Positions 23,975-53,305 of a stretch of 64,000 nt of DNA are shown one piece after another. Origin of the DNA: an uncultured Opitutia bacterium. GTDB taxonomy: Bacteria > Verrucomicrobiota > Verrucomicrobiia > Opitutales > Opitutaceae. The stretch lies in assembly GCA_903877135.1 (NCBI GenBank), contig CAIRCN010000034.1:1-64000 (forward strand), given 5' to 3'. Made by a program: the position numbers and the translations under genes. The stretch's first letter is position 1. Each line of letters starts with the position of its first letter. The notes under the pieces were generated by a model. The model was not told where the DNA came from. It was given only the letters and a program-made list of their open reading frames with translations, and did no database searches.

Positions 23975-23992
23975 GGGGTCGTCAGAAAAAGA

Positions 23993-34065: not shown

Positions 34066-34066
34066 G

Positions 34067-35098: not shown

Positions 35099-35122
35099 GA
35101 GTGAACAAACTGAACTGGGAAG

Positions 35123-35172: not shown

Positions 35173-35189
35173 AAACTCCCGGAATTTTC

Positions 35190-35957: not shown

Positions 35958-35962
35958 CGGTC

Positions 35963-36796: not shown

Positions 36797-38011
36797 ATGA
36801 GCGACTCCGACCACCGCCCGATTGTTGATGAACCTCTGCCCCTCCCCCAGCGCTGGGGCGAGGCCGAACTCACTCGGCTGACCACCATGGTCGGACAGTC
36901 TTCACTCTTTTACTGGAAGGGTCCGCAAACCACGGCGCTGCTCGAGGAATTTCGCCGCCACTACCCGTTAAAACACTGCTTCCCATGCTCCTCGGGATCG
37001 GCGTCGTTGCACATCGCCGTCGCCGCACTGCGCCTGCGTCCTGGCGATGAGGTGGTTGTGCCTCCGATCACTGACATGGGCTCGCTCATCGGCATTCTCT
37101 ACCAGCAGGGCGTGCCGGTCTTTGCCGATCTTGATCCCCGCACCTACAACCTCGCGCCGGCCGCCGTGCGCGCGGCCATCACCCCGCGAACTCGTGCGAT
37201 CATGGCCGTGCATCTCGCGGGCAATCCCTGCGACCTCGCCGCCCTCAGCCTCATCGCCCGAGAGCACCATCTCGCTCTCATCGAAGACTGCGCCCAGTCT
37301 TGGGGAGCGCGCTGGCAGGACCAGCCAGTCGGCACCATCGGCGACTTCGGCTGCTACTCATTCAACGACTTCAAGCATGTCAGCTGTGGCGATGGCGGCA
37401 TGGTTGGCACCAACGACGACCAACGCGGCAACGGCCTCTCCCGCTGGGGCGACAAATTCTACAACCGCATCGTGGGCGGCCGTGACCCCGAGGAACTCGC
37501 GCCGAACTATCGCATGAGCGAACCGCAGGCGGCGGTCGCCGCCGCCCAACTCACCAAGCTCGCCGACATTGTCGCCCGCCGCCGTGACGCCGGCGATTTG
37601 CTCACGTCGTCGCTCACCGGCACTCTTGGTGTGGTTCCGCCGTTCGTTGCCCAAGGCAACACGCACAGCTACTGGTTTTACATGCTGCGCCTCGAACTCG
37701 CGCACTTCAAAGCCACCCGCGACGAAGTCGCCGCAGCTTTCCAAGCTGAAGGGATCGCGTGCGGCGCCGGCTACATTCCCCGCCCGGTCTACCGCTACCC
37801 GGTGTTCAGAAATCACAATTTTTTTGGTGGTGCGTGGCCAATCCGTGACGCCGGCTACACTTCGATGGATTACCGCACCGTCACCTGCCCCGTCGCTGAG
37901 GCGATCCTTGCCGATTGCATCGTCCTGCGCCTCAACGAGGCCATGCACGACGATTACATCCAAAAGGTCGCGCGCGCCGTTCGCACCGTGGCAGGCCGCC
38001 TCTTGCGTTAG
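36797..38011 (+). CDS. DegT/DnrJ/EryC1/StrS family PLP aminotransferase 1
   Basis: 404-residue sugar aminotransferase-type protein. The PLP Lys193 lies in SFNDFKHVSCGDGGM, with EDCAQSWGAR (about 163-172) upstream supplying the Asp that contacts the pyridine nitrogen, and CSSGSASLHIAV (about 64-75) for the phosphate. Enzymes of this family convert keto-sugars or keto-cyclitols to amino derivatives, usually from glutamate or glutamine. It is the third gene in a row with the two amidohydrolases. Its stop is 8 bases from the convergent sialidase-like gene. Function in either making or dismantling an amino sugar is inferred. Confidence 0.88.
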   Translation: MSDSDHRPIVDEPLPLPQRWGEAELTRLTTMVGQSSLFYWKGPQTTALLEEFRRHYPLKHCFPCSSGSASLHIAVAALRLRPGDEVVVPPITDMGSLIGILYQQGVPVFADLDPRTYNLAPAAVRAAITPRTRAIMAVHLAGNPCDLAALSLIAREHHLALIEDCAQSWGARWQDQPVGTIGDFGCYSFNDFKHVSCGDGGMVGTNDDQRGNGLSRWGDKFYNRIVGGRDPEELAPNYRMSEPQAAVAAAQLTKLADIVARRRDAGDLLTSSLTGTLGVVPPFVAQGNTHSYWFYMLRLELAHFKATRDEVAAAFQAEGIACGAGYIPRPVYRYPVFRNHNFFGGAWPIRDAGYTSMDYRTVTCPVAEAILADCIVLRLNEAMHDDYIQKVARAVRTVAGRLLR

Positions 38012-39168: not shown

Positions 39169-39175
39169 CAACGAA

Positions 39176-40414
39176 TCAGCCGCAGACTTCACAGTGCACC
39201 GCGATGATCGAGTCGGCGATGTAATCGGCGTCCTCGGCGGTGTAGAGCCAGCCGATCGGCAGCGCGATGAAGCGCTTCGTCAGTTCCTCTGTGCGCGGAA
39301 AATCCTCCGCGCGATAACCCTGTGCCGGCCACTCCTTGAACTCCCGAAACGGCGACGCCGCCGGTGCGTGCGCAAGCCCCGTCTTCACATAATCGCGGTT
39401 GTATTGGGGGTAGGTGCCGGTGCGCTGGCCGCAGTTCACATTGAGTGCATCGAGTTTGTCGCGGAACGGCGCCACGAGCGCGGGATCGTCGAGCATCAAG
39501 TAAATCTCGAAACCGAAATCGCCTGCCGGGTCCGGCACGCGTCGAAGCGACAACCCCTTTAGTCCCGCGAGCCGCGGCACGATACGCGACTGCAGCGCCC
39601 GGCAATGCTGCCACATTTTATCCACCTTCCGCAGTTGCGCGAGGGCCACCGCGGCGGTGAGTTCAGACATCCGAAACTGACCGCCCGCAAACGCAGGTTC
39701 CCGCGGCGGCACTATCGCCGCGTGATAGGGCCGGTAGTTCCCCAAGTCGTGGTAACGCACCGCCCGCTCATAGAGTCGCTGGTCGCGGGTCGTTACCATG
39801 CCGCCCTCGCCCGACGTCGCGACCTTATTGTATTGGAAACTGTAGGTGGCGATATCGCTCCACGTCCCAATGTGGCGGCCGCGGTAGCGCGTGCCCAGCG
39901 ACTGCGCACAATCCTCGATCACATAAATACCTCGCCGATGCGCTTCGAGTTGGATCGCCTCCATCTCGGCCGCAACACCCTGATAGTGGATGACCATCAC
40001 GGCTCTGGTGCGCGGCGTCACCAGCCGGGCGATCTCGTGGGGATCAAGGTTGAGGGTGTCGTTGATCTCGGCGAGCACCGGTCGCGCGCCGACCCGCACG
40101 ATACTGGTGAAGCAAGCGATCCAGCTCCAGGCGTTGACGATCACTTCGTCGCCCGGACCGATCCCCGCCGCCGCCATCGCCACCTCGAGCGCCGCCGATC
40201 CGCTCGTGACCGCGAGCGCATAGTCGGTGCCGATATACTCGCGAAATTCTTTCTCAAACTGCGCGGCCATCGGCGGTGTCGGCTTGAAATCCGAGCCGTA
40301 GTATCTGAACGGCTCCTTGCGGCGCAGGACATCCAGCACAAGGGCTTCTTCTTCAGCGCCGATCGCAGCGGCGCCCAGACCGGGTTTGGGACGGGGACGG
40401 AGGGGAGTCGGCAT
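39176..40414 (-). CDS. DegT/DnrJ/EryC1/StrS family PLP aminotransferase 2
   Basis: 412 residues from the ATG at 40414, which has a GAAGAGAG ribosome-binding-like stretch upstream. PLP Lys197 lies in SFQYNKVATSGEGGM, EDCAQSLGTRY (about 167-177) precedes it, and VTSGSAALEVAM (about 69-80) binds phosphate. It is longer at the C-terminus than aminotransferase 1 and only moderately similar, so it should use a different substrate. It heads an operon with the sialidase-like gene and is divergent from the first of the three propeller-like genes. Candidate reaction: transamination of a keto-sugar or keto-cyclitol. Confidence 0.87.
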   Translation of the reverse strand: MPTPLRPRPKPGLGAAAIGAEEEALVLDVLRRKEPFRYYGSDFKPTPPMAAQFEKEFREYIGTDYALAVTSGSAALEVAMAAAGIGPGDEVIVNAWSWIACFTSIVRVGARPVLAEINDTLNLDPHEIARLVTPRTRAVMVIHYQGVAAEMEAIQLEAHRRGIYVIEDCAQSLGTRYRGRHIGTWSDIATYSFQYNKVATSGEGGMVTTRDQRLYERAVRYHDLGNYRPYHAAIVPPREPAFAGGQFRMSELTAAVALAQLRKVDKMWQHCRALQSRIVPRLAGLKGLSLRRVPDPAGDFGFEIYLMLDDPALVAPFRDKLDALNVNCGQRTGTYPQYNRDYVKTGLAHAPAASPFREFKEWPAQGYRAEDFPRTEELTKRFIALPIGWLYTAEDADYIADSIIAVHCEVCG

Positions 40415-40519
40415 GACAACTCTCTTCTCTAAGAAATCTCTTGGAACGGCAAGTGTGCGTCGTTGAATAAACAGGAAAATCGCGTTGCTGCTCGCTTCGC
40501 GCCGACATTTTTTGACCGC

Positions 40520-42511
40520 ATGAATCCGCGCCGTGCCCACGGAGTCACCTCTCCCCTCGTTCGCGACCTTGGCGTTCCAGTCAAGGGCGTGTGCTGGGCG
40601 CGCCTGCATCCCGGAAAAACCGCCGCCGGGCGCGATTCGCTTCTGGCCTCGATGAGCCAGAACAATGGCGGTCTATTTGTCATCGATATCGACCTCGAGA
40701 CCGGCCACTGCACGCAGTTCCAAGTCCACGACGGCGCGCGCTCCACCTTCGCTGCCGCCTCGTTCCGCTCGTTGCTCACCGGAATTCTCTACATCGTCTC
40801 CGGCTGGGACGGCCACCTGCACCGCTTCGACACCACCCGCTCCGAGCGCGGTCTTGAGGACCTCGGCCGCATCTACGACACTCCCGGCGACATCGCTCCG
40901 CTTGGTATTAGCGAAGGCCCTGACGGCATTCTCTGGATAGGCACTTACCCTGGCGCGAGCCTCACCAAATTCAATCCCGCCACCAGCGGCTTCACGCATT
41001 TTGGCAGGTGCGACGAAACTGACAACTATCTCTATCCACTCGCTGGCGACGACAGTTCACTCGCCGGCATCGTGAAATTCGGTCGCCAGCACCTGCTCGT
41101 CATTGACCCCAAGACCGGCGAGCACCGCGAAGTTGGCCCCTCTGTTACCGATCCCACCGACAAGGCGCAATTCCTGAAATTCTTCAAGGGCACCGACCGC
41201 CGCCTCTATCTCGATTCGCACGCCGGAAAATTCCGCGTCGACGGCATGAACCTTACGCCTGTCGATGAGTTGCCCGCGCCGCTCCCCGGCATTCACGCCA
41301 CCTACAAGCACGCCTACCAGGCACCTGCCGAGATGCCTGGCGGTTGGACCGCTCATTTCCTCGACGACAACATCAACGGCACCGGCACGCCGCGCAACGT
41401 TCTCCTCGTCAACCGCGACCCGCTCGTCCCCAGCCGCCGCCTGCTTCTCGACTGGGTTGGCAGTGGCTCCAACCTGCACGTTTTCGACATTGGCCCCGGC
41501 GGCGACATTTTCGGCACGAGCTACATGCCCAATCGCCTCTTTCGCGCCAAACCCGACGGCCGTGAAATCGCCGACCTCGGTGAACACACCTTCGCCGGAG
41601 GCGAAGCCTACTCGCTCGCGACGCTCGATGGCAAAGTTTACCTTGGCTCCTACCCCGAATCGCGCCTCTCCGTTTACGACCCTACGAAACCCGTCCACTT
41701 CGGCACTGGCCCCAACGACAATCCACGCGACCTCGGCCGGCTCGACGCCATCGGCTTCCGCCCTAACGTCCTGCTCACGACGCCTGACGGCCGCCTCTGG
41801 ATGGGCTCAAGTCCCGACTACGGACTCTACGGCGGCCCGTTCGCGTGGTTCGATCCGAAGACCGGCGCGAAAAGATCCCACCGCCACGTCGTCGCCAATC
41901 TGTCGCCCGCCTCGGGCCTCTATCTGCCCGAGTTGAAACAAATTCTCCTCGGCCTCAGTATCGAGCCCGGCACCGGCATGCCGGTGAAAAAGAATCTGCT
42001 CAACGGCGCCTTCTCCTTCTGGGATCCGGCGAAAGACGAACTCGTCTGGTCCGGCGACCTCGGCCTCGACAACCTCGCCGACATCACCTCGCTCGCGCCT
42101 GCTGGCGGCGGCTACGTTTACGCGCTCATCGGCCGCGGCGACCACATTCTCACCGCTGGCGCGCCGGAGATTCGCCCCCGACTCGCGCTCATTGATCCAG
42201 CGAAACGCACCGTCGTCGCCTCCGCCTGGTTGCCTGAGGATTTCGGCCCGCTCTCGTGGCACGGCTATTTCTCGCTCCGCGTCGGACCGGGCGGCGTGGT
42301 TTATGGCGTGACCGGTTACTGCGTTTTCCGCATCGGGCCCGGCACCTGCGACCTCAAGCGTGTCTGGCAGCTCGACCAGCCAAAGAAGCGCCCCGGCACC
42401 GTCTGGCTCACCGCGTCCTCGACCAACGTCATCGACGTCGTCGGGCCCATCATCGGCCACCAGTTCTACTTCGCCACCGGCTGGCGCCTCCGCACACTCA
42501 CGCTACCTTGA
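40520..42511 (+). CDS. tandem propeller-like protein A (unknown function)
   Basis: 663 residues from the ATG at 40520. The frame is open to a TTG at 40463, but similarity to its paralogs starts at residue about 13 (VRDLGVPVKGVCWARLHPG). No signal peptide is seen. Repeated strand-turn units of the kind 'DGxLWIGTYPGASLTKFNP' and 'GKVYLGSYPESRLSVYDP' suggest a beta-propeller related to SMP-30 or streptogramin-lyase-like folds. The invariant blocks among the three paralogs are SQNNGGLFVIDIDL (about 50), ERGLEDLG (about 112), a Y-L-Y-P segment (about 172), and the C-terminal FYFATGWRLRTLTLP. I do not recognise a named family or catalytic site. It is the first gene of a five-gene operon. Confidence 0.8.
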   Translation: MNPRRAHGVTSPLVRDLGVPVKGVCWARLHPGKTAAGRDSLLASMSQNNGGLFVIDIDLETGHCTQFQVHDGARSTFAAASFRSLLTGILYIVSGWDGHLHRFDTTRSERGLEDLGRIYDTPGDIAPLGISEGPDGILWIGTYPGASLTKFNPATSGFTHFGRCDETDNYLYPLAGDDSSLAGIVKFGRQHLLVIDPKTGEHREVGPSVTDPTDKAQFLKFFKGTDRRLYLDSHAGKFRVDGMNLTPVDELPAPLPGIHATYKHAYQAPAEMPGGWTAHFLDDNINGTGTPRNVLLVNRDPLVPSRRLLLDWVGSGSNLHVFDIGPGGDIFGTSYMPNRLFRAKPDGREIADLGEHTFAGGEAYSLATLDGKVYLGSYPESRLSVYDPTKPVHFGTGPNDNPRDLGRLDAIGFRPNVLLTTPDGRLWMGSSPDYGLYGGPFAWFDPKTGAKRSHRHVVANLSPASGLYLPELKQILLGLSIEPGTGMPVKKNLLNGAFSFWDPAKDELVWSGDLGLDNLADITSLAPAGGGYVYALIGRGDHILTAGAPEIRPRLALIDPAKRTVVASAWLPEDFGPLSWHGYFSLRVGPGGVVYGVTGYCVFRIGPGTCDLKRVWQLDQPKKRPGTVWLTASSTNVIDVVGPIIGHQFYFATGWRLRTLTLP

Positions 42512-42533
42512 TTTTTCCCGGCAACAATTCCTC

Positions 42534-44528
42534 ATGAAACTCCTCTGCGTCCTCGCCGCACTCTGCATGTCCCTCGCCACTTCCCTCGCCTCCGAACCCG
42601 TCGTCCGCGAACTCGGCGTGCCCGTGAAGGCCGTCAACTGGGTCCGCCTTCATCCCGGCCGCGGCCCCGACGGCAAGGCGTCGCTCCTCGGCTCGATGGG
42701 CCAGAACAACGGCGGCCTCTTCGTCCTCGATATCGATCTCGCGACCGGTCACTGCCGGCAGTTCAACGCGCCTTCGGCCAAACAGCAGTATCCTACCGTG
42801 TCGTTTCGCAGCCCGCACACCGGCGCGCTCTACATAGGCGCCCACGCCGACGGCCACCTTCTGCGCTACGACCCAGCGCATGCAGAACGCGGCCTCGAGG
42901 ACCTAGGCGCCATCGACGGCGACCATGCCACTTTTCCTACCGGCATCACCGAGGCGCCTGACGGCACGCTCTGGATCGGTGGCTATCCCGACTGCACCCT
43001 CACGCATTTCGATCCGGCCACCAGAGTGTTCACGCGCTTCGGTATGATGGATGACACCGACAAATATCTCTACCCGATCTGCGGCGCCGATGGCACGATC
43101 GCCGCAGTTTCGAAGGTCGTGCATCCGCACCTGATCGTGTTCGATCCCAAAACCGGATCGCACAAGACCGTCGGCCCCGTGACCTCGCCCGAGGACAAAG
43201 CGCAGCGCCTGCTCTTTTTCAAAGGACTCGACGGCCTACTCTATCTCGACACGCATATCGGCAAATTCCGCGTGTGCGGCCAGGACTTGGAGCCGGTCAC
43301 CTACCTGCCCCAGGCCATGCCCGGAATTCAGGCGACCTACAAACACAGCTATCAGGAGGTCCTGCCGATGCCCGACGGCGTAATCGCCATGTGGGACGAC
43401 GGCGATGACGGCGCGGGAACTTTCCGCACCGTCCGCCTCACCAGCACCAACCCCACCGTCGCCCCGCGTCTCCTGCCGCTCGACTGGCAGGGCGGTGGCT
43501 CGAATCTCTTCGTCCTGCACCGCGGCCACGACGGCAACATCTACGGCTCGAGCTTTCTGCCCGAGCACATCTTCCGCTGTGCGCCCGACGGCTCCGGCAT
43601 GATCAACCTCGGCCGTTGCAGCCTGATGCTCGGTGAAGCCTACACCATCGGCAGCTTTAGCGACGGCACGATGGCGTTCGGCTCCTATCCACACGCCAAC
43701 ATTTCCCTCTACGATCCCCGCCGACCCTGGCATTTTAGCGCCGACGTCGATGGCAACCCGCGCGACATTGGCCGGCTCGACGACGTCGGCATCCGCCCGG
43801 TCGGAATGGCCATCGTCCCCGCGCTCGCTCAGCCCGACGGCACCACCGTGCCCGAGCGCCTGTGGGTCGGCTCGCTGCCCGACTATGGCACATGGGGCGG
43901 CACGCTCGCGTGGCTCGATCCCAAGACCTTGAAATTCGCCAGCCACCGCAACCTGATCCCCGAGACCGCGCCAGTCTCACTGCTCTGGCTACCCGCGATG
44001 AAACAACTGCTCATCGGCCTCAGCATCGATGGCGGCACCGGCACGAAGCCCAAGGCCAGCCACGGCGCCTTCGTGCTCTGGGATCCCATCAACGACCGGC
44101 CCCTTTACACCGGCGACTTTGGCCTCGCCAATCTGGCCGACGTCGTCGCGCTCGCCCCTGCCGGGGACGGCCGGGTGTATGCTTTGCTCGGCCACACGCG
44201 CTGGACCGCTGAGCAACTCGGCGCTGAGGCGGGCCCGACCCGTCTCGCGCTGATCGACCCCGCTGCGCACAAGGTGCTCGCCGTCGCTCCGCTGCCCCCA
44301 GAGTTCGGCCGGATGCCTGAGCAAATCCAGTTCTGCATTTTCCCCGGCCCCAACGGCGTCTACGGCATCACCGAGCGCACGCTCTACCGCATCAAACCCG
44401 GCACCTGCGACGTCGAGGCGGTCTGGCGCGCCCCCGCAGGCGACCAGCTCGACACGCCCGGCCCGTGGATCGGAAAGACGTTCTACTTCGCGACCGGCTG
44501 GCGGCTGCGCACGCTCACGCTGCCTTGA
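42534..44528 (+). CDS. tandem propeller-like protein B, exported (unknown function)
   Basis: 664 residues from the ATG at 42534, 22 bases after protein A. It is the only one of the three with a clear signal peptide (about 1-19, MKLLCVLAALCMSLATSLA, cleavage before SEP). The mature part aligns with protein A from VRELGVPVKAVNWVRLHPG onward and shares its blocks (GQNNGGLFVLDIDL, ERGLEDLG, KYLYPICG and the C-terminal FYFATGWRLRTLTLP). The nucleotide sequence at the 3' ends of genes A and B is also very alike, so these two are the more recent duplicates. The presence of a leader suggests the paralogs act on both sides of the membrane. Confidence 0.82.
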   Translation: MKLLCVLAALCMSLATSLASEPVVRELGVPVKAVNWVRLHPGRGPDGKASLLGSMGQNNGGLFVLDIDLATGHCRQFNAPSAKQQYPTVSFRSPHTGALYIGAHADGHLLRYDPAHAERGLEDLGAIDGDHATFPTGITEAPDGTLWIGGYPDCTLTHFDPATRVFTRFGMMDDTDKYLYPICGADGTIAAVSKVVHPHLIVFDPKTGSHKTVGPVTSPEDKAQRLLFFKGLDGLLYLDTHIGKFRVCGQDLEPVTYLPQAMPGIQATYKHSYQEVLPMPDGVIAMWDDGDDGAGTFRTVRLTSTNPTVAPRLLPLDWQGGGSNLFVLHRGHDGNIYGSSFLPEHIFRCAPDGSGMINLGRCSLMLGEAYTIGSFSDGTMAFGSYPHANISLYDPRRPWHFSADVDGNPRDIGRLDDVGIRPVGMAIVPALAQPDGTTVPERLWVGSLPDYGTWGGTLAWLDPKTLKFASHRNLIPETAPVSLLWLPAMKQLLIGLSIDGGTGTKPKASHGAFVLWDPINDRPLYTGDFGLANLADVVALAPAGDGRVYALLGHTRWTAEQLGAEAGPTRLALIDPAAHKVLAVAPLPPEFGRMPEQIQFCIFPGPNGVYGITERTLYRIKPGTCDVEAVWRAPAGDQLDTPGPWIGKTFYFATGWRLRTLTLP

Positions 44529-46432
44529 ACGCCTTTGTCGAACTCGGCGTGCCGGTGAAAGGCATCAACTGGGTGCGGCTGCATCCGGGGCAAACTGCAG
44601 ACGGCCGCCCGTCGCTGCTTGCCTCAATGGGCCAGAACAACGGCGGCCTCTTCGTTCTCGATATCGACCTCGCCACCGGACACTGCCGGCAATTCCCCGT
44701 CGGTCTCGTCGGCGCCGATTACCCGAGCGCGTCGATGCGCAGCCTGCGCACGGGCGCGCTCTATGTCGGCTCCGCGTGGTCCGGACATCTGCACCGCTTC
44801 GATCCCGCGCACTCCGGGCGCGGCCTCGAAGACCTCGGTGCCGTCGATCCCGAACTGGCGACGTTTCCCACCGGCATTCAGGAGGCGCCGGACGGCTCGA
44901 TCTGGATCGGCGCCTACCCGGGCGCGTGCCTCACGCGCTTCGATCCGGGCAGCGGCCGTTTCACGCGCCACGGCCGCATGGACCCGGTCGAAAAATACCT
45001 CTACCCGCTCTGCGGCGACGATGGCACGGTCGTCACGCAGGTGAAGATGATCCGTTACCGTCTCGAGGCCATCGATCCGCGCACGGGCGAACACCGCGCC
45101 GTCGGTCCGGCACTCGACGAGCCGACCAATCCGTCCCGCCGTTTCATCTTCTTCAAAGGCACCGACGGTCTCCTTTACCTCGAATGCGACCAAGTTAACT
45201 TCCGCCTCGCCGGCTTCGCCGCCATCCCGGTCGACCGCGTGCCGCCGCAGATGCCGGGCATCCATTCCACGATCAAACACGGCTATCAGGAACCCGTCCT
45301 CATGCCCGGCGGCCTGCGCGCAGCGCTCACCGATGAGGAAGCCGGCATCTTCCGCACGCTTCGCCTCACGTCTGCCAATTCCGCTGTCCCGACTCGCGAG
45401 GTCACGCTCGACTGGCAGGGCGGCGGCACGAAGATTTTCCTGATTCACCTCGGTCCGGACCGCCGCATCTACGGGTCGAGCTACATGCCCGAGCACCTAT
45501 TCCGCTGTGAACTCGACGGCACAGGCATGACCGACCTCGGCCAGTGCAGCCTCTCGCTTGGCGACGCCCACTCGATGATCAATTATGGCGACGGCCTCAT
45601 GGCGATCGCCTCCTATCCCGCAGCGCGCGTCTCGCTCTACGATCCGCGCCAGCCTTTTCGTTTCGGACTCGGCCCTGGCAGCAATCCCCTCGACCTCGGC
45701 AGCCTCGACGACGGCGAGATCGCTTACCGGCCACACACAATGGCAACTTCGCCCGACGGCCGCATCTGGATCGGCTCCGTGCCCAACTACGGTCTACGCA
45801 GCGGCCCGCTCGCCTGCTATGATCCGAAAACCGGTCACCGCAAAACTCACCGCGAACTGGTGCCCGACGCTTCGCCCAACTGCATGCTGTGGCTGCCGGC
45901 GCTGAACCAGATGCTCATCGGCCTCGGCACCGAGGAAGGCAGCGGCGTGCAGGTAAAACGCGACGCCGGCGCCTTCGTGCTCTGGGACACCGAGCGCGAC
46001 CAGCTCGCCTACGCGGGCGACTTCGGCGTCGCCAACCTTGCCGATGTCGTCTCGCTGGCACCCGCCGACCGCGACGGCCTCGTCTACGCACTCAGCGCCC
46101 GTCCGGCCTATCTCGTCGTCGATTTCGGCGCGAAACCTGCGCCGACGCAGCTCCTGCTCCTCAATCCCGCCCGCCGTGCCGTGGTGGCCAGATCACCCGT
46201 GCCACCGGAGGCCGGGCCACTGCCCGTATTCAGTTACGACATCCTGCGCACCGGCGACGACGGAGCGATCTACCTCGTGTTGGCCACCGGCGTGTTCCGC
46301 GTCACACCCGGCACCTGCGAACTCACGCCCGTCTGGAAAATGCCCGCCGACACTATCGACTCTGCCGGCCCCTTGGTCGGACGCCGCCTCTTCTTCGCCA
46401 CGGGATGGAACCTGCGCTGCGTCGATATTTAA
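44525..46432 (+). CDS. tandem propeller-like protein C (unknown function), TTG start
   Basis: 635 residues from a TTG at 44525 that overlaps the stop of gene B (TTGA). The protein begins almost directly with the paralog core (NAFVELGVPVKGINWVRLHPG), so no leader is possible. It shares GQNNGGLFVLDIDL, GRGLEDLG and KYLYPLCGDDGT. Its C-terminus differs (FFATGWNLRCVDI), marking it as the most diverged copy. An upstream ATG-type start would lie inside gene B. The coupled start implies translation dependent on gene B. The orphan sugar-binding protein gene follows 10 bases later. Confidence 0.8.
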   Translation: MNAFVELGVPVKGINWVRLHPGQTADGRPSLLASMGQNNGGLFVLDIDLATGHCRQFPVGLVGADYPSASMRSLRTGALYVGSAWSGHLHRFDPAHSGRGLEDLGAVDPELATFPTGIQEAPDGSIWIGAYPGACLTRFDPGSGRFTRHGRMDPVEKYLYPLCGDDGTVVTQVKMIRYRLEAIDPRTGEHRAVGPALDEPTNPSRRFIFFKGTDGLLYLECDQVNFRLAGFAAIPVDRVPPQMPGIHSTIKHGYQEPVLMPGGLRAALTDEEAGIFRTLRLTSANSAVPTREVTLDWQGGGTKIFLIHLGPDRRIYGSSYMPEHLFRCELDGTGMTDLGQCSLSLGDAHSMINYGDGLMAIASYPAARVSLYDPRQPFRFGLGPGSNPLDLGSLDDGEIAYRPHTMATSPDGRIWIGSVPNYGLRSGPLACYDPKTGHRKTHRELVPDASPNCMLWLPALNQMLIGLGTEEGSGVQVKRDAGAFVLWDTERDQLAYAGDFGVANLADVVSLAPADRDGLVYALSARPAYLVVDFGAKPAPTQLLLLNPARRAVVARSPVPPEAGPLPVFSYDILRTGDDGAIYLVLATGVFRVTPGTCELTPVWKMPADTIDSAGPLVGRRLFFATGWNLRCVDI

Positions 46433-46442
46433 CCTCACTGCC

Positions 46443-47423
46443 ATGCGCTCATCTCGCCTTCCTCCCACTCTGGCATTGTTAGCCGGATTCCTTGCCAGCT
46501 CTCTGTTTGCCGCCGAACGCGCCTACACCGTCGCGGTTGTGCCGATGGGGACGACGCACGAGTATTGGAAATCGATCCACGCCGGCGCGATCAAGGCGCA
46601 GCGCGAACTCCGCGCCGAGGGCATTGCTGTGGACATCATTTGGAAAGGACCGCTGCGCGAGGACGACCGCGACCAGCAGATTCAGGTCGTGGAGAACTTC
46701 ATCGGCCGTCAGGTGAGCGGCATCGTCCTCGCCCCGCTCGACAATCACGCTCTCGTCGCGCCAGTGGAAGCGGCCACCGCCGCCGGCATCCCCGTCGTAA
46801 TCGTCGATGCCGGCCTTAAGTCCAAGGCGCCGGTCAGTTTCATCGCGACCGACAACCTTGAGAGCGGCCGCATCGCCGCCCGCCGCCTAGGCGAACTGCT
46901 GCACGGCCGCGGCAACGTCATTCTCCTCCGCGTGCAGGTCGGTTCCGGCAGCAGCGAGGAACGCGAGGCCGGTTTCCTCGAGGAAATCACAAAAAGATTC
47001 CCCGCCATCAGAATTGTCTCCTCCAACCAGCACGGCGGTGCCACGCGCGACACCGCCATGGCGGTCAGTCAGAACCTGCTCAACCGCTACGGCGCGGAGG
47101 TGAACGGCATCTTTACGCCCAACGAGTCCACGACTATCGGCATGCTGCTCGCGCTGAACAACGCCGGCCTCGGCGGCGGCAAGGTGAAGATCATCGGCTA
47201 CGCGAACAGCCAGATCTTCGTCGACGCCCTGCGCCGTGGCGACCTCCAGGGCCTCGTCGTGCAGGATCCGGTGCGCATGGGATACCTCGGCGTGAAATTC
47301 GTCATCCAAGTGCTCCGCGGTGAGAAAGTCCCGCCCGTCGTGGTCACCGCCGTGGGCATGGCCACCGCCGAAAATCTCTCGGACCCCGCCATCGCCGCCC
47401 TCCTGAATCCGCCGTTGCAATAG
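46443..47423 (+). CDS. periplasmic sugar-binding protein (RbsB/LacI-type fold), orphan
   Basis: 326 residues from the ATG at 46443. The signal peptide covers about 1-23 (ending SLFAA). A type I periplasmic binding protein follows: VAVVPMGTTHEYWKSIHAGA (about 31-50), GIVLAPLDNHALV (about 87-99), GIPVVIVDAGL (about 109-119), FIATDNLESGRIAARRLGE and NGIFTPNESTTIGML. These are typical of ribose/galactose-binding proteins. No ABC permease or ATPase gene is present in the window, so it may serve a remote transporter or a sensor, or buffer the ligand for the neighbouring propeller proteins. It lies within the five-gene operon, 60 bases before the desaturase gene. Confidence 0.88.
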   Translation: MRSSRLPPTLALLAGFLASSLFAAERAYTVAVVPMGTTHEYWKSIHAGAIKAQRELRAEGIAVDIIWKGPLREDDRDQQIQVVENFIGRQVSGIVLAPLDNHALVAPVEAATAAGIPVVIVDAGLKSKAPVSFIATDNLESGRIAARRLGELLHGRGNVILLRVQVGSGSSEEREAGFLEEITKRFPAIRIVSSNQHGGATRDTAMAVSQNLLNRYGAEVNGIFTPNESTTIGMLLALNNAGLGGGKVKIIGYANSQIFVDALRRGDLQGLVVQDPVRMGYLGVKFVIQVLRGEKVPPVVVTAVGMATAENLSDPAIAALLNPPLQ

Positions 47424-47483
47424 CCTCCGCGTTTGCGGAGCGGCCGTTCTCGCTTACATCATCTCCAGTCCCACCTCCCCACG

Positions 47484-48581
47484 ATGAACGAGCAAATCAA
47501 GATCAACTGGTATCGCTGCAAGATCGACAAGGCCGTCATGAGCGAACTCATGCGCAAGAGTGATGCCCGCGCCTTCCGGCAGGCCGTCCCACAGCTCCTG
47601 CTCTTCGCCACCACCGGCACCCTCGCCTACTTTGCCTACCGTCATCTCCACTCCACCAACTGGCCGTGGATGCTGCCGCTTCTTCTGCTCGCGCTCTTCG
47701 CCCATGGCACCAACGCCAGCTTCATGGGCGGCATTGCCTGCCATGAACTCTGCCACAAGACGCCTTTTGCCACGCAGTTTTGGAACACATTTTTCCTGAA
47801 AATCTACGCCTTTCTCGGCTGGTTCGACCCGATCGGTTACCGCGCCAGCCATATTCGCCACCATCAGGCCACCACGCACACCGACCATGACGGCGAAGTT
47901 GTGCTGCCGCAGGGCCTCGACTGGCACGGCGTGAAGTTCGTGATGACGGCGCTCACCTGCAATCCCCTCGGGATCCTAAAGCAAATCCGGTTTTGGGTGG
48001 CGGCCGCGTTCGGCGACCTCAGCTACGACGCTTTCTTCAAGGCCAAATGGCTTCAGCGCGTGGTGCCCGAGTCGGATGCAAAATCCCGCCGTGAGCTGCA
48101 CCGCTGGGCGCGAATCGTTCTCTTCGGGCATTTCACCCTCGCAGTGTTGTTCATCGCCACTGGGAATTGGTTCCTGATTGTGATCGTTAATCTCGCGACG
48201 TTCTACTGCCCGTGGTTGGTGGTCCTTTGCGGCGTGCCGCAGCATATCGGCCTCTCGCCCAACACCCCCGACTTCCGCCTCTGCTGCCGCACCTACACCT
48301 GCAGCTGGCTGCCGGGCTTTTTCTACTGGAACATGCAATACCACGTCGAGCACCACATGTTTCCCGCCGTGCCGTTCTACAACTTGCCGCGGCTGCGCAA
48401 GGCCATCGCACACGACCTGCCCCCCGCACCGCACGGTCTCTGGGCCACATGGCAGGAAATGCTCCCCATCATGCGCCGGCAGCGCGCGGACCCAACCTAC
48501 GTTTACGTGCCGCCACTGCCAAAGAACGAGGGCGACCACGCCACCGACGCGACACTCTTCACCGAAGCCGCGCAGGCGTGA
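47484..48581 (+). CDS. membrane di-iron fatty acid desaturase-like protein (paralog 2)
   Basis: 365 residues from the ATG at 47484. Histidine boxes are H87-x3-H91 (CHELCHK), H123-x2-H126-H127 (ASHIRHHQ) and H287-x2-H290-H291 (QYHVEHHMF), with the extra His in VPQHIGLS. The first box has Cys in place of the usual Gly (HELCH). It shares the N-terminal NWYR start, the DFRLCCRT segment and the RQRADPTY tail with paralog 1. It ends an operon of three propeller-like proteins and a sugar-binding protein, an unusual setting for a lipid desaturase. It converges with the cysteine hydrolase gene, 3 bases apart. Confidence 0.85.
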   Translation: MNEQIKINWYRCKIDKAVMSELMRKSDARAFRQAVPQLLLFATTGTLAYFAYRHLHSTNWPWMLPLLLLALFAHGTNASFMGGIACHELCHKTPFATQFWNTFFLKIYAFLGWFDPIGYRASHIRHHQATTHTDHDGEVVLPQGLDWHGVKFVMTALTCNPLGILKQIRFWVAAAFGDLSYDAFFKAKWLQRVVPESDAKSRRELHRWARIVLFGHFTLAVLFIATGNWFLIVIVNLATFYCPWLVVLCGVPQHIGLSPNTPDFRLCCRTYTCSWLPGFFYWNMQYHVEHHMFPAVPFYNLPRLRKAIAHDLPPAPHGLWATWQEMLPIMRRQRADPTYVYVPPLPKNEGDHATDATLFTEAAQA

Positions 48582-48584
48582 AAC

Positions 48585-49430
48585 TCATCTTTGCGCCGGC
48601 AGCGAGCGCACTGCGCGGGTGAAATCGTCCGCGCCGAATACAAACCCGGAGTTGATCGCCACGCGCCAGAGCGCCTGCTGTTTCTCGCGCTCCTCGCGCG
48701 CGGTCTCGCGGTTTTCAACCGCCGTTACGGCCTCGCGGATCGTCGAGCACATCACACCGTAGCGTCCCATATCCACCATGCCGCCGGGCGACATCAGCAA
48801 GCACCAGTTGATCGCGAAGCCAATATAGACGAGGTGATTGATGCCGTGGGCGCGGCAGAGGGCGGCGAGTTGATGACCGTCCTCAGCGATCGGCTCGTCA
48901 CCGACCGGGCGGGCCTCGGGCGCAAAGCCGAGTTTCTTAAAACCTTTACGCACATCCGGCCAGTTGCGCTTGCCGACAAACACCTCGCTCGCGCGAAATT
49001 TCTCCAGCCGTTTGTAAACGGCGTCCTTTGTCACCGCCTGGTGCTTCGGCGACGGGCCGGCGAGTTTCTTCGTCTGCTTGTAGCCGGGCAGCTGAGAATA
49101 GTAATCGCCGCCACCCACGACGTGAAACACCGGGAGCGACGAAGCCCGGACGGCCGTCAGCAAGGGCGGGAAAACCTCGGCGAGAATCTTGAGCGCCCGC
49201 GGGTGATACTCGACGCAGCGCCGCCAGCCTGGCCATTGGTCCATCGTGCCGCACTCCCAGGCGTGCATCACGACGAGCGCGGTATGGTCGGGAGAGAGTT
49301 CAATGTCGGCGGTTTTCCAGCCGCCGAAGCCCTCGCCGGGCACGTCGTGGGTGTAGTCGGCGTCGAACTGCTGGTAGTAGTGCGCGGGAAGCTTCACGGG
49401 GTTCATGTTAGGCTGCCAATGGTCGTCCAT
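48585..49430 (-). CDS. cysteine hydrolase (isochorismatase-like)
   Basis: 281 residues from the ATG at 49430 (an in-frame ATG at 49406 would give 273). The isochorismatase-like alpha/beta fold has the catalytic Asp in DHTALVVMHAWE (about D48), Lys in VGKRNW, and nucleophile Cys in GFAINWCLLMSPGG (about C209). The family hydrolyses amides, enol ethers or ureido compounds. It is larger than typical members (about 180-220) by an N-terminal extension and a charged C-terminal helix. It is the last gene of the heparinase/symporter operon, 13 bases after the symporter stop. It may cleave an N-substituent or lactam from the imported compound, which is inferred. Confidence 0.8.
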   Translation of the reverse strand: MDDHWQPNMNPVKLPAHYYQQFDADYTHDVPGEGFGGWKTADIELSPDHTALVVMHAWECGTMDQWPGWRRCVEYHPRALKILAEVFPPLLTAVRASSLPVFHVVGGGDYYSQLPGYKQTKKLAGPSPKHQAVTKDAVYKRLEKFRASEVFVGKRNWPDVRKGFKKLGFAPEARPVGDEPIAEDGHQLAALCRAHGINHLVYIGFAINWCLLMSPGGMVDMGRYGVMCSTIREAVTAVENRETAREEREKQQALWRVAINSGFVFGADDFTRAVRSLPAQR

Positions 49431-49443: not shown

Positions 49444-51210
49444 TCAAGCGGGGCGTGTCCGCGCCAGCCAGCGCAGCACGAGACCGACCGCGATCATCAG
49501 GCTGCCGCCGACCACGTTGATCGACGCCGGGGCGATCTGCGTAGCCGGCACAAACCAGCAGCCCAGTAGCACCGCGCCGATCACCAGGCTGAGGTTGCCG
49601 ATCACGCCGTAAACCTTCATTGCGCCATGCCCCTCCGGGCCTTTCTCGCCGGGCACCCGCGTGCGCAGATCGCGGTCCAGTTGCACTGCAAGGGCGCTCT
49701 GCGGGTCGTCGGGACGCCACCAGAAGGCCGACACGGCGAACACCATTGTGGAAGCGACGACCGCGCTGAGGACGTTGCGCGCGTAGGCCTGGTCGGGAAA
49801 GGCATTAAGGCCCATCAGCGTGAACGCCGCGATAAAGGCCGCCATGCACGAGGCAATGCCCGACCACCACGGCGTTCTTCGGTAAATGAGCCCGAGCGCG
49901 ACCGGCATCATGAAGCCGGGACCGACCATAGAGTAATATTTCAGGCCAAAATCAAAGGCGCCGCCGAGCCTCGAAATCACGAACGACAGAGCCACTCCGC
50001 TGACACCGATCACGAACATAGTGACCTGCGCGGTGCGCATCTGGTGACGATCCGACGTTTCTGAGAAACCAAGCCACCGCCAGATCGGCACGTAAACGTC
50101 CTTCGTCACCGCCGCCGAAAGCCAGTTGAACGCGTCGTTCGCCTGCCCCAGCGTCGCCGAGAGAATGGCCGCGACCACGAAACCGATCATGCCGTGCGGC
50201 AACAGCAGCATGGCGAGGCTGACGAACGAGGCCTCCTCCGGCGCCTTCAGGTTCGGCCACAGGGCCGCCATGTCCGGGAAAATCAGCCGGGCGCACATCA
50301 CCGGTAGCACCCACATGAGCGGGCCGAAGACCGACAGCCACGCGCCGAGCATCGCCATCTTCTTCGCGTCGCGCTCGCTCGGCACGCTGTTGTAGCGCTG
50401 CGCGAAATGCCAAGCCACGTTATAGCCGAGCATCACGCTGATCAGGTAGGAGGCGAGGAAAAGCGGCTCTACCGGCTGGCCGCTCGGCGTCAGGTAGTCG
50501 TGCGGCAGCTCAGACACGAGGCGCCGCACGCCGGCAGAAATTCCACCGCCCTGGCCGAGGTAGGCTAGCGAGATCGGTAAAATGATCACCGACATCACGA
50601 GGATTATCACGCCCTGAATCGCATCCGACAGCACCGCCGCCCACAGACCTCCAACCACGCTGTAGAGAATCATGACGAAGCCGACCACGAGCATGCACGC
50701 CTGCAGGCCGGTGAGCGAGAAGCCCAACACGCCGAAGGTTGTGCGGTCGAACCCGAGCGCCGCCGACACAAAGATGCACAGGATGTAGAGCCCTTGCGCG
50801 ATGCCCACGACCTGCGGCACAATCGACGTCACCGTGTAGAAATAGGTCGTCGAAGGCGAATACCGCCGCGTCAGAAATTCGAGCGGAGCCTGAATGCGCG
50901 CGCGCCGCCACATCGGTGCGAAATAGAAATAGCCGGCGAGATAGGCCCAAAATGCCGAGGTAAAAATCACCAACGCGCCCGAGCCGTGTTTATAGGTATA
51001 GCCGGCCGCCGCCACGAACATGAACGCGGAAAAACCGGAGACCCAGCTCGACACGCCAGCCATAAACCACGGCACCTTGCCGCTCGCCTTAAAGAAATCG
51101 CTCGTCCCCTTGTTTTTGCCGGCCGCGTAGAAGCCGACCCAGATGACGATAATGAAATAGAGGGCGATCAGGATGTAATCGATCGCGTTGACGGTATTAA
51201 AGCGGGGCAT
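49444..51210 (-). CDS. sodium:solute symporter (SSS family)
   Basis: 588 residues from the ATG at 51210 (MPRFNTVNAIDY). About 14 membrane helices. The family signature appears as GKVPWFMAGVSSWVSGFSAF in the first helices and the FVVAAILSATLGQANDAFNWLSAAVTKD region around helix 8-9 that forms the sodium site. SSS carriers import sugars, sialic acid or other organic solutes with Na+. It lies 13 bases after a heparinase-like lyase gene and ahead of a cysteine hydrolase, so it probably imports the unsaturated oligosaccharide or monosaccharide product of those lyases. The substrate is inferred from context. Confidence 0.88.
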   Translation of the reverse strand: MPRFNTVNAIDYILIALYFIIVIWVGFYAAGKNKGTSDFFKASGKVPWFMAGVSSWVSGFSAFMFVAAAGYTYKHGSGALVIFTSAFWAYLAGYFYFAPMWRRARIQAPLEFLTRRYSPSTTYFYTVTSIVPQVVGIAQGLYILCIFVSAALGFDRTTFGVLGFSLTGLQACMLVVGFVMILYSVVGGLWAAVLSDAIQGVIILVMSVIILPISLAYLGQGGGISAGVRRLVSELPHDYLTPSGQPVEPLFLASYLISVMLGYNVAWHFAQRYNSVPSERDAKKMAMLGAWLSVFGPLMWVLPVMCARLIFPDMAALWPNLKAPEEASFVSLAMLLLPHGMIGFVVAAILSATLGQANDAFNWLSAAVTKDVYVPIWRWLGFSETSDRHQMRTAQVTMFVIGVSGVALSFVISRLGGAFDFGLKYYSMVGPGFMMPVALGLIYRRTPWWSGIASCMAAFIAAFTLMGLNAFPDQAYARNVLSAVVASTMVFAVSAFWWRPDDPQSALAVQLDRDLRTRVPGEKGPEGHGAMKVYGVIGNLSLVIGAVLLGCWFVPATQIAPASINVVGGSLMIAVGLVLRWLARTRPA

Positions 51211-51223: not shown

Positions 51224-53305
51224 TCAGACGGTGACGGCCGGTGATCCATCGGCCGTAGCAAGCACAAGCGCGTTGATGGAGCGACCATTGTGGGCGCCGC
51301 GCACCCGCCAGCCGGTGCCTTCACGGGTGACAGCGAGTGCGCCGTGCGCCGCACCCGCCTTTTGTGCTGTCGCCACCGTAAGCACTGCGTGCTCCAGCGC
51401 CGCCGCACTGGTCACCTCGGCGAATAAATAGATTCCCTCGATATCGGGCAGCGCGAGCCGACCTACCGCTGCGCTGACTGGACCGGTCGCGTGGACGGTC
51501 GCGCATAACGTGGCATGTGGTCGGGTGATGGCGAAGCGCGCCCCGGCGGCATCGGCGTGACCGCGGCCGTCCTCGTTGCAAATCTGAAACCGTAGTTGGA
51601 CGGGCGCCGCGTCCTTGGCCAGCCGCACGCGGTCGAGCAGAAGCAGCACGTCGGGTTTGAGGAAAACCACGGTGCGCTCGACGTGCATTACCGACGACCG
51701 CACCAGTTGATATGCCTCCGTCGCATCGCTGGTCACCGCCATCCAACCATCGCCGGTGCGATAATCAGTCACACTTGCCGTGGCCCACGATGAGTTTGTG
51801 CCTTCGCTGCCGTCGTGGTATTGGTGGCCCCGGCCCCCGATCAGCAACGCCGTATGCGCCTCCGTCTGGCGCAGCAGCCAGCGTGGGCTGGTGGGGATGT
51901 AGGCGGCCTTGAACGGGTCGTGGAACAGGCGCTCGCCATGTGCCTTGAAGATGACGCTGTTGCGGTCTGCGTGCTCGTGGTTGGCCGGACCGCCGCTGCG
52001 CAGCGCGACGACCGTGTCTTCCGCCGCCCAGCCCGTGCGCGAAATCACCAGGTCGTTCGCCATGCGCACATCGAGCAGTTCCGGACCCGGTGCTTGCGTG
52101 GGTGCTGCGGCATCATACCAGAACACCGAGGCAAGCTGCTTCATGCCGCCGATCTCGCGGGCGACATTGCTGGACAGCGCATCGTGGTGCGTGCGCGCGA
52201 CCCAGGGCGCGATCGAGACATCGATTGCGATGCCCGAGTCGCCGAAGTTCACCATGTCTTTGCGCGGATCGAGCGTGCCTTTGGGTGTGGCGGAATAGCC
52301 GGCCTTTTCGTTCGGGTTGACGACTGGCGGGCCGAGCGTCGGCATCGCCATGCTCAACGCATACCGCACCGTGCCGGGATAGTTGATCAGACTGCGTTCG
52401 TCGATGCCGGTGCGCCGGTGCAGCGCCTCGGCAAACATGATGAGGTGCATCGTCGTGTAGCCCCAGTAACCCACGCCCTCGTCGTAGCTGCCGTCGAGCC
52501 CATACATGGTCGCGAAAGCCCGGGCGCTCTGACGCGCCAGCTCGAGCCACTTCGGCGCCTCAGCGTGCCGGCCGTGCAACGTGATCGCCGCGAAACCGAG
52601 GCCGCACGTGGGGATGACTTTCAGGTTTGTGGCGTTGAGAATCAGCGGCCACCGGCGCAGGTCCGTCTGGAAAGGAAACTTTTCCGCCGGATCGAGCGTC
52701 CAGCCGCGGACACGGTCGGGATATTTCATCCCGTAGAGCGCCAGATAGCAGGCCGGCGCGCCCTTTGTCGCGACCTGATGCTCGATCGCGGCGCGTTCTT
52801 CCGCCGTGAGCGCGTCCCCCAGCCAGTCGAGGGCCAGGCAGCACGCGATGCTTGCCTCCGAAGCGCGCTGCAGGCCGAACGTCTGCGTGCCACCCTCGAG
52901 AAAATAGTCCCAGTGCTCGTATTCGCCCAGTCGCCGCAGCGCGAGGCGCGCCAGGGCGAGTTGCCGCTCGTCGCGGGTGAGCGCGAAGGCCAGCGCCGCG
53001 TGCTCCAGCAACGTGCGGGCGCGCAGCATGTCCACCACATGATCGGTCAGCTTGATCTCGTCGCGCAAAAACCGTTCCTGCGCTTCCAGGTCGGCCGGAA
53101 AAACCTCCGCCCGCAGTTCCGCAAAACGCGGTGAATCGAGGTTCGCGCGGATGCGCGGCAGATCCTCGGCGTCGAACAGCAATCCCCGCATGTGGCCAAA
53201 TTTGGCCGCAGGTGCCATCGGTGTGGCATCGCTCCCAGCTCGGCCCAGCAGCGGCAGCGTTGCGAGCAGGCCGGCGGATTTCAGAAAGGCGCGGCGGTTG
53301 AGCAT
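51224..53305 (-). CDS. exported heparinase II/III-like polysaccharide lyase (paralog 2)
   Basis: 693 residues from the ATG at 53305. The leader MLNRRAFLKSAGLLATLPLLG looks Tat-type (RRAFLK). An N-terminal (alpha/alpha) toroid contains SYDEGVGYWGYTTMH (about 300), whose Tyr and His residues are typical of the active site. A beta-sandwich domain follows with the GGPANHEHADRNS metal motif (about 440) of heparinase II/III-type lyases. Such enzymes cut uronic-acid glycans by beta-elimination. It is clearly paralogous along its whole length to the next gene upstream (53322-55421), 16 bases away. It is exported to the periplasm or beyond, with a sodium symporter 13 bases downstream. Confidence 0.87.
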   Translation of the reverse strand: MLNRRAFLKSAGLLATLPLLGRAGSDATPMAPAAKFGHMRGLLFDAEDLPRIRANLDSPRFAELRAEVFPADLEAQERFLRDEIKLTDHVVDMLRARTLLEHAALAFALTRDERQLALARLALRRLGEYEHWDYFLEGGTQTFGLQRASEASIACCLALDWLGDALTAEERAAIEHQVATKGAPACYLALYGMKYPDRVRGWTLDPAEKFPFQTDLRRWPLILNATNLKVIPTCGLGFAAITLHGRHAEAPKWLELARQSARAFATMYGLDGSYDEGVGYWGYTTMHLIMFAEALHRRTGIDERSLINYPGTVRYALSMAMPTLGPPVVNPNEKAGYSATPKGTLDPRKDMVNFGDSGIAIDVSIAPWVARTHHDALSSNVAREIGGMKQLASVFWYDAAAPTQAPGPELLDVRMANDLVISRTGWAAEDTVVALRSGGPANHEHADRNSVIFKAHGERLFHDPFKAAYIPTSPRWLLRQTEAHTALLIGGRGHQYHDGSEGTNSSWATASVTDYRTGDGWMAVTSDATEAYQLVRSSVMHVERTVVFLKPDVLLLLDRVRLAKDAAPVQLRFQICNEDGRGHADAAGARFAITRPHATLCATVHATGPVSAAVGRLALPDIEGIYLFAEVTSAAALEHAVLTVATAQKAGAAHGALAVTREGTGWRVRGAHNGRSINALVLATADGSPAVTV

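Follow-up and report, generated by a model that had tools for sequence, protein, structure and literature searches.

Introduction

The rhizopine (moc) genes of rhizobia (MocB, MocDEF) are among the described systems closest to the locus reported here; rhizopine and the mocD oxygenase are treated in excerpts of two papers (PMC2593844, PMC10107442). In both cases a ribose-type binding protein is encoded in the same locus as a membrane oxygenase, in a sugar or cyclitol context, and the oxygenase of the present locus, Des2, shares with the rhizobial enzyme the Pfam desaturase family and the histidine boxes. In contrast to the moc genes, however, Des2 is not adjoined by a ferredoxin or reductase gene. 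Identity to the proteins of the corresponding R. indicum region is low, 31% for Des2 and 24% for the binding protein (PBP), and the listed features of the R. indicum stretch include no propeller, DegT, heparinase-like or symporter gene.

The remaining parts resemble other known proteins. Like the binding proteins of CUT2 (ribose/allose-type) ABC importers, PBP belongs to Peripla_BP_4 and has homologues that pair with a ribose-type ATPase and permease, whereas the present locus encodes neither and a candidate pair is located on contig C51 of the same genome. Virginiamycin B lyase, like several other propeller proteins, has a fold similar to that predicted for one propeller domain, but here two propellers are read in one chain and no PDB sequence match to the lyase was obtained. 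Periplasmic Reg_prop sensors of hybrid two-component systems have in common with the propellers weak Reg_prop repeats and the best PDB sequence match; the propellers of this locus, in contrast, carry no attached kinase or regulator domain. A published description of the locus was not found in the open-access literature, judged by titles and abstract openings.

Organization of the locus

The locus is situated in a stretch of 64,000 nucleotides from an uncultured Opitutia bacterium, referred to as the window (Table 1). Five co-directional open reading frames, encoding propellers A, B and C, PBP and Des2, are confirmed, and the intergenic distances of 22, −4, 10 and 60 bases given in the earlier note are reproduced, in agreement with an operon-like set. 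The reading frame of propeller C offers no ATG start, and the TTG used overlaps the stop of B by 4 bases. A scan detected two terminator-like sites, both on the minus strand, where 5.7 are expected by chance, and one promoter-like site against an expected 1.0. Since both values are at or below chance level, the sequence does not contradict a single transcript.

The longest reading frame of propeller A is opened by a TTG at 40463, yet this triplet begins the conserved motif TTGAATAAACA, an exact copy of which precedes the leading propeller of nine further distinct loci. The TTG is probably not the start of A. Searched alone, the second half of the motif was found once against 1.4 expected occurrences, which is not above chance.

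Table 1. Features of the window in and around the five-gene set.
Feature	Coordinates	Strand	Remarks
Des1, second desaturase	30836..31855	+	40% identical to Des2
DapA-like (−), NAD-epimerase-like (−), two Amidohydro_2 (+)	33019..36712		part of the same conserved locus
DegT1 aminotransferase	36797..38011	+	
DegT2 aminotransferase	39179..40426	−	divergent neighbour; best PDB match 5k8b
Motif TTGAATAAACA	40463..40473	+	precedes propeller A
Propeller A	40520..42511	+	663 aa; clade A; no leader by eye
Propeller B	42534..44528	+	664 aa; clade B; hydrophobic leader by eye; modelled
Propeller C	44525..46432	+	635 aa; clade C; TTG start; no leader by eye
PBP, ribose/allose-type periplasmic binding protein	46443..47423	+	326 aa
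Des2, probable MocD-type membrane oxygenase	47484..48581	+	365 aa
IsoC, isochorismatase-like protein	48585..49430	−	19.5 bits, under the Pfam cut-off of 27
Sodium:solute symporter (SSS)	49444..51207	−	
Heparinase II/III-like protein 1	51224..53299	−	
Heparinase II/III-like protein 2	53322..55430	−	weak PDB matches: oligoalginate lyase, PL35 chondroitinase
ROK family kinase	55539..56465	−	
AraD, L-ribulose-5-phosphate 4-epimerase-like	56462..57160	−	

The conserved locus extends beyond the five genes, and the predicted functions of the neighbours point to catabolism instead of a stand-alone device. The best PDB match of DegT2 is an 8-amino-3,8-dideoxy-octulosonate transaminase. At E 1e-5 NCBIfam gave no name to the DapA-like and epimerase-like proteins, the two amidohydrolases or IsoC, and the PDB matches of the three tried were weak or nil. 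The DapA and epimerase matches (23.5 and 31.7 bits) are too weak to sustain either an oxidative uronate pathway or a sialic-acid pathway, and both candidates were rejected.

Distribution of the propellers and the desaturase

For comparison, 47 propeller loci were fetched, not counting the window. They represent fewer than 47 genomes, since the pairs L112/L130, L116/L117 and L118/L138 each derive from one genome. Twelve were dropped, eleven located near a contig end and one without a full propeller match. The remaining 35 loci extend 1.5 kb or more beyond the propellers in both directions; 19 of them have DegT2 upstream and 16 lack it. Des2 follows the propellers within 5 kb in 15 of the 19 DegT2 loci and in none of the other 16. 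It is not found downstream in four of the 19, among them L134 and L138, for which at least 5 kb are shown. PBP is present in just one of the 19.

The same association is seen across 189 genomes, the window's own included. A full-length propeller is encoded in 30 of them (six of 36 genomes, G020, G040, G043, G105, G156 and G159, were dropped for weak matches), and 16 have a Des2 orthologue at 60% identity or above, two of these orthologues being fragments; matches below 60% were excluded (G123 and G132 at 52–54%, others at 46% or less). Both occur together in 12 genomes (Fisher p 3.5e-8 by genome and 2.8e-4 by genus). Six genera hold both proteins, five of them in one genome. In nine of the 12 genomes propellers and Des2 are separated by no more than about 1.2 kb; two of the remaining genomes, three in number, have Des2 next to IsoC. 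Des2 orthologues unaccompanied by propellers occur in G049, G055 and G095, and as a fragment in G024.

Relatives also carry the catabolic locus without the propeller-desaturase module. Where neither propellers nor Des2 are present in the fetched stretch, DegT2 adjoins SSS or IsoC in eight of nine DegT2 loci. In G064 a propeller lies about 18 kb from the core locus and is not adjacent to it. The conserved unit consists of the propellers and the desaturase, which tend to travel as an insert in a sugar-breakdown locus of one bacterial family. Members of this family are freshwater and soil bacteria.

With high confidence, the locus is composed of three layers. The first, shared by relatives of the same family, consists of two DegT, two amidohydrolase, DapA-like, epimerase-like and isochorismatase-like proteins together with the sodium symporter, heparinase-like proteins and the ROK kinase; it is complete in some relatives and partial in others. 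In a subset of relatives a second layer is positioned between DegT2 and IsoC; it comprises between one and four genes for double propellers and, after them, the MocD-type desaturase. The third, a lone binding-protein gene between propellers and desaturase, is seen in the window's genus. The co-occurrence of at least two of the three protein types, which the earlier note had named as a check, is thus found for propellers and desaturase, mostly close together. Its counterpart, that the genes lie mostly apart, applies to PBP (beside the propellers in two of 13 genomes) and not to propellers and desaturase.

Propellers A, B and C

The three propellers are paralogues, A and C each being 53% identical to B, and are predicted to be double β-propellers from three old clades, which are maintained in parallel with the order A-B-C kept. 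Pfam detects Reg_prop repeats barely above the cut-off in A and C and none in B, and no kinase or DNA-binding domain in any of the three; NCBIfam matches none of them. The AlphaFold2 model of B (pLDDT 92.8) consists almost entirely of β-strands and is read as a tandem arrangement with two propellers per chain. The proposal that the propellers are split across the membrane agrees with the window, where by eye only B displays a hydrophobic leader, but does not extend to relatives, in which the leaders vary.

Structural comparison of the B model places virginiamycin B lyase first (Z 28.6, rmsd 2.4, 289 aligned residues), and matches at most 1.2 below this top Z include Lp49, YncE and WDR91. Since top scores are common to the lyase and to unrelated propellers, the fold is uninformative on function. 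No polysaccharide lyase is found among the best 50 VIA-align matches listed, which, by VIA-align's own note, excludes nothing. A sequence search of the PDB for a characterised relative returned short or marginal matches only, the best being a sensor histidine kinase chain (4a2l; E 6e-8 over about 95 residues, E 2e-7 with a larger alignment). The top Foldseek matches are BT4673 ectodomains, although the full-length match is poor (TM 0.34, rmsd 22). Polar residues invariant in 33 propeller sequences include His21, Gln38, Arg73, Glu103, Glu121, Tyr159, Asp214, Tyr366, Arg402 and Tyr432 (numbering of the alignment's first row).

The desaturase Des2

Des2 matches FA_desaturase (PF00487) with 104.6 bits (cut-off 29.7), and its best plasmid matches are desaturases of Caballeronia, Paraburkholderia and Rhizobium (31–33% identity, 93–98% covered). 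In all six outside regions opened, the desaturase adjoins a ferredoxin of the MocE family or of another oxygenase. One of them, that of R. indicum, also holds a sugar-binding protein, Gfo/Idh, iolE, an FAD reductase and purU and is read, from its gene content, as a rhizopine-type set. The histidine boxes and a C-terminal pattern (HELCH, SHIRHH, QHIGL and YWNMQYHVEHHMFP) align between Des2 and the R. indicum protein. In Paraburkholderia a sugar-binding-protein gene adjoins the desaturase and a MocE-family ferredoxin, and the gene table, which is incomplete, lists no ABC genes within 6 kb on either side. Judged from these alignments and gene contexts, Des2 is probably a MocD-type oxygenase, although its identity to the MocD-type proteins compared is just 26–34%. 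Weak NCBIfam matches comprise a lipid desaturase (DesB), a guanitoxin protein and carotene hydroxylase, a PDB search gave no meaningful match, and BLAST did not match Des2 with the C74 desaturase of the same genome (E up to 1e-3).

Three Rieske matches are present in the window's genome, on contigs C14, C68 and C6, and none on the window's contig. The protein on C14 is a lone Rieske protein, whereas C68 encodes a paralogue of Des2 in which desaturase, Rieske ferredoxin and reductase form one fusion protein (754 aa). In eight relatives, surveyed with a crude gene caller, no Rieske protein was seen in the stretches read around Des2.

The binding protein PBP

PBP is a Peripla_BP_4 protein (196 bits, Pfam), and its lack of an ABC permease and ATPase, pointed out earlier, is borne out for the five genes and the neighbours scanned. 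The counts given here cover sets of 115 and 49 genomes, which may overlap by a few. A close orthologue is encoded in 13 genomes (one, in G072, is counted although split across two reading frames) and adjoins the propellers in just two of them, the window's genome and G001, both of the same genus. The five close orthologues opened outside the genus have neither ABC genes nor propellers adjoining. Eleven of the 13 genomes possess propellers somewhere, which leaves room for a functional link between genes that are not neighbours, and ten of them also possess Des2. PBP is a local addition in the window's genus and not, as had been supposed, the central part of the module.

In 13 of the 20 loci fetched, a more distant homologue (46–64% identity) is directly followed by genes for an ABC ATPase and permease, although the closest PBP subfamily is absent from these trios; from the contexts of six ABC-linked homologues, compared by eye, no common substrate emerged. 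Six ABC permease-family matches occur in the window's genome (on C38, C51 and C22), and on C51 an ATPase/permease pair, homologous to the pairs in these trios, lacks a binding protein. The earlier note had named as a refutation an ABC pair encoded elsewhere and co-regulated with the binding protein alone. As to location, the window's genome has a candidate pair without a binding protein, and in relatives the homologous pairs adjoin PBP homologues. By analogy, PBP may borrow its transporter from the C51 pair. MocB works with membrane parts of an inositol transporter, according to the excerpt of PMC10107442, but because this precedent is an engineered hybrid the odds of such borrowing are set slightly below even.

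Discussion

In the preferred reading, to which a probability of roughly 0.5 is given, the operon represents a layered insertion into a catabolic locus and contributes an oxidative step on a modified sugar. The lyases would produce a sugar acid or an oligosaccharide for entry through the sodium symporter. Des2, with electrons from a Rieske ferredoxin and a reductase whose genes lie elsewhere and which are assumed to act in trans, would hydroxylate the imported compound, most plausibly stripping an O-methyl group as described for MocD and 3-O-methyl-scyllo-inosamine. The propellers may act on this compound too, by binding or processing it, on either or both sides of the membrane, and PBP may deliver a related sugar to the C51 pair of ribose-type ABC proteins. 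O-demethylation by Des2 in modified-sugar breakdown is a tentative assignment drawn by analogy. Similarly speculative is a wider proposal, that of an oxidative module not described before and encountered in this analysis mostly in Opitutaceae. In it a new family of double-propeller enzymes would act jointly with a membrane di-iron oxygenase to open a modified, for example O-methylated, sugar or cyclitol of plant or algal polysaccharides, and the module would form a cassette in a heparinase/symporter/aminotransferase pathway that is likewise undescribed.

The earlier note had seen in the five genes a single device for capture and modification and not simple uptake; PBP would pass its ligand to propellers and oxygenase without import. 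The tight spacing, the joint presence of PBP orthologues with propellers and Des2 in most genomes concerned, and the ABC-free gene neighbourhood listed in the incomplete Paraburkholderia table agree with such a device. However, the restriction of the PBP-propeller adjacency to the window and G001, the ABC genes that follow distant PBP homologues, and the changing propeller leaders make it highly improbable. A lipid enzyme, that is a fatty acid desaturase or hydroxylase which tunes the envelope while the propellers act as scaffold or surface proteins and the sugar neighbours are incidental, would fit the Pfam family name and the DesB match. This alternative is nevertheless unlikely, in view of the missing similarity to the C74 desaturase, the position of Des2 between propellers and IsoC in several genera, and the oxygenase ferredoxins beside the six outside relatives.

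The propellers themselves could be sugar sensors akin to the periplasmic domains of hybrid two-component systems, with the kinases detached. It is to such sensors that 4a2l and the BT4673 ectodomains point, but the sequence match is short, the structural match over the full length poor, a leader is not apparent by eye in several copies, and neither kinase nor DNA-binding domains are detected by Pfam; this role is unlikely. Alternatively, they may constitute a new enzyme family, for instance sugar-acid lyases or isomerases with the virginiamycin B lyase fold. The first structural match, the many invariant polar residues and the three clades kept parallel and in order are compatible with catalysis, yet a fold scored nearly as highly for Lp49, YncE and WDR91 is silent on function, and this assignment is rather doubtful.

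The layered-insert reading illustrates that tight packing in one genome can hide layers with differing distributions, and the propeller family, with its three parallel clades, represents a well-defined target. Methylated and otherwise modified sugars are resistant to breakdown, and not many enzymes that demethylate modified sugars are known. If the module demethylates such sugars by means of a membrane di-iron enzyme, it would give insight into how Verrucomicrobiota use polymers in lakes and soils.

The propeller genes and the oxygenase

The open reading frames of the window bear out the five-gene arrangement of the earlier note, in which the genes of three propellers (A, B and C), a sugar-binding protein (PBP) and a desaturase (Des2) follow each other with gaps of 22, -4, 10 and 60 nucleotides. 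The reading of all five as one capture-and-modify device, in contrast, did not hold: the conserved unit consists of the propellers and a MocD-type oxygenase and lies inside a catabolic locus.

Each about 650 residues long, the three propellers are paralogues, A and C both being 53% identical to B. The model of B (mean pLDDT 92.8; 33 rows) is almost all-beta, and about 290 residues, taken from a range covering the whole chain, match seven-bladed propellers. The top structural match is virginiamycin B lyase (Z 28.6), with unrelated propellers close behind. On this model B is read as a tandem double propeller. Pfam detects only the Reg_prop repeat, barely above cut-off, in A and C. Hydrophobic leaders, assigned by eye, vary among relatives, being present in both copies of G001, a genome of the same genus, and absent from all four copies of locus L113.

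A family scan of limited reach, using one genome per species and a single peptide pattern, yielded 47 propeller loci, almost all labelled Opitutaceae, Opitutae, Opitutales or Verrucomicrobia. Two exceptions, loci L144 and L146 of the CTSoil set, come from records with the labels Bacteroidetes and Acidobacteria, which are probably mis-binned. In a tree of 74 rows, A, B and C belong to separate clades (36, 23 and 14 rows; SH-aLRT 100, 100 and 99, by a quick method without bootstrap), and in the multi-copy loci compared by tblastn the most A-like copies stand first and the most C-like last. A, B and C are old paralogues maintained separately and not fresh duplicates.

Among 189 genomes, the window's own included, 36 hold a propeller match. 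Full-length propellers occur in 30, a Des2 orthologue (at least 60% identity; two are fragments) in 16, and both in 12. For this co-occurrence Fisher's test gives p 3.5e-8 when genomes are counted and 2.8e-4 when genera are, the relatives not being independent. In nine of the 12 genomes the genes lie within about 1.2 kb of each other; in G072, G094 and G093 Des2 is on a contig other than that of the propellers, beside the isochorismatase-like gene IsoC in the former two and with no IsoC nearby in G093 (L172). Des2 without propellers is found in G049, G055 and G095, and as a fragment in G024.

Position within a larger catabolic locus

Gene order was derived by tblastn with 21 window proteins as queries against the loci of relatives. 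The recurrent order starts with M20, DapA-like and epimerase-like genes (-), followed by two amidohydrolases and the aminotransferase DegT1 (+), in some loci a BNR protein (-), a second aminotransferase, DegT2 (-), then the propellers, sometimes PBP, and Des2 (+), and finally IsoC, a sodium:solute symporter, heparinase-like, ROK and AraD genes (-). In individual loci the set is incomplete by at least one gene. No description of the locus was found in the open-access literature.

DegT2 lies upstream of the propellers in 19 of the 35 loci with enough flank, and Des2 follows the last propeller in 15 of these 19 versus none of the 16 without DegT2. The latter include L122 and L123, where a single propeller is flanked by DegT1 on one side and by IsoC, symporter and heparinase genes on the other; L124 is arranged alike and was left out of the count since its contig end is too near. 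Other relatives have the core with neither propellers nor Des2 in the stretch fetched; in eight of nine such DegT2 loci opened, DegT2 adjoins the symporter or IsoC gene. Because the core thus exists without both, the propellers and Des2 resemble an insertion that separates DegT2 from IsoC. Full-length propellers are encoded elsewhere in two of the eight genomes, G093 and G064; in the latter the distance to DegT2 is about 18 kb.

In a comparison of 23 gaps between DegT2 and propellers, a candidate promoter or operator motif, TTGAATAAACA, was found ahead of the first propeller in the window and in nine further distinct loci, each time inside the gap. Allowing one mismatch, the window has a single occurrence against 0.2 expected; no second site was found in the 64,000 nucleotides, so that the motif provides no link to other window genes. 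An inverted-repeat-like element (TCATT ... AATGACAAATCAGAA, with small variations) adjoins the DegT2 start in about ten of 22 relatives aligned (L103, L105-L111, L121, L130, L145) and was not seen in the window.

Features of the window and of related loci
Feature	Sequence	Positions	Strand	Remarks
Glycosyl hydrolase, DUF2961-like and GH127-like genes	window	21909-25873		in a row, by eye; perhaps an arabinan-related set
Des1	window	30836-31855		second MocD-like desaturase, 40% identical to Des2
BNR/sialidase-like gene	window	38023-39192		between the two DegT genes; 75-79% identity in L103, L108, L121
Five-gene operon	window	40520-48581
IsoC	window	48585-49430	-	kept across the locus, yet under the Pfam isochorismatase cut-off
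Two large multi-PAS signalling proteins	window	58100-63410		in tandem, by eye; apparently more past the window end (L158)
PhyH-type dioxygenase	L107	13252-14103		adjoins IsoC
PhyH-type dioxygenase	L119	15304-16143		adjoins IsoC
Desaturase-Rieske-reductase fusion	C68 (L155)	5686-7947		own genome

By eye, the first catalytic aspartate usual for the isochorismatase family seems to be missing from IsoC. In L133, also by eye, a PhyH-type dioxygenase again stands beside IsoC; a sulfatase gene and a third DegT gene lie nearby.

The binding protein

PBP is of the ribose/allose type. In two sets of 115 and 49 genomes, close orthologues (at least 69%) were found in 13 genomes, the window's included, and only the window and G001 place propellers beside them. 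Five other close orthologues opened are lone genes with unrelated neighbours, one being split over two reading frames. Propellers do occur somewhere in 11 of these 13 genomes, in ten of them together with Des2, so PBP may be functionally linked to them at a distance. In 13 of 20 loci fetched, a somewhat more distant homologue (46-64%) directly precedes the genes of an ABC ATPase and a permease. A counterpart of this ATPase-permease pair lies without binding protein on contig C51 of the window's own genome, which also has, on C44, a second lone PBP, 63% identical, next to a RidA gene; RidA, PBP, ATPase and permease stand together in G059 and G045. The simplest reading is that the C51 pair serves the C44 protein and perhaps also PBP of the window. 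MocB offers a partial precedent: in an engineered hybrid it functioned together with the membrane components of a transporter for inositol (PMC10107442).

Des2 and its relatives

The plasmid proteins that match Des2 best (31-33%) come from Caballeronia, Paraburkholderia and Rhizobium. In all six regions opened around such outside relatives, a MocE-family or other oxygenase ferredoxin adjoins the desaturase. The R. indicum region, where a binding protein, Gfo/Idh, iolE, a ferredoxin, an FAD reductase and formyltetrahydrofolate deformylase accompany the desaturase, is read as a rhizopine-type set; its desaturase shares the histidine boxes with Des2 at 31% identity. MocD is described as the oxygenase converting 3-O-methyl-scyllo-inosamine to scyllo-inosamine (PMC2593844).

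As no Rieske gene was found on the window's contig, Des2 would depend on an electron donor encoded elsewhere. The window's genome encodes a natural fusion of 754 residues with desaturase, Rieske and NqrF-like reductase domains, the Rieske part of which matches the MocE family best in NCBIfam, below its cut-off. Possible counterparts of the fusion are nine matches in eight relatives that sit in open frames of 764-816 residues. Between Des2 and a further desaturase, on contig C74 of the same genome, BLAST gave no match. Des1 follows the gene of an MFS transporter, which NCBIfam matches best to the galactonate type; 36-46% matches to Des2 are found repeatedly in relatives.

The oxygenase itself is of a known kind; its pairing with putative double propellers is, within reach of these searches, new.
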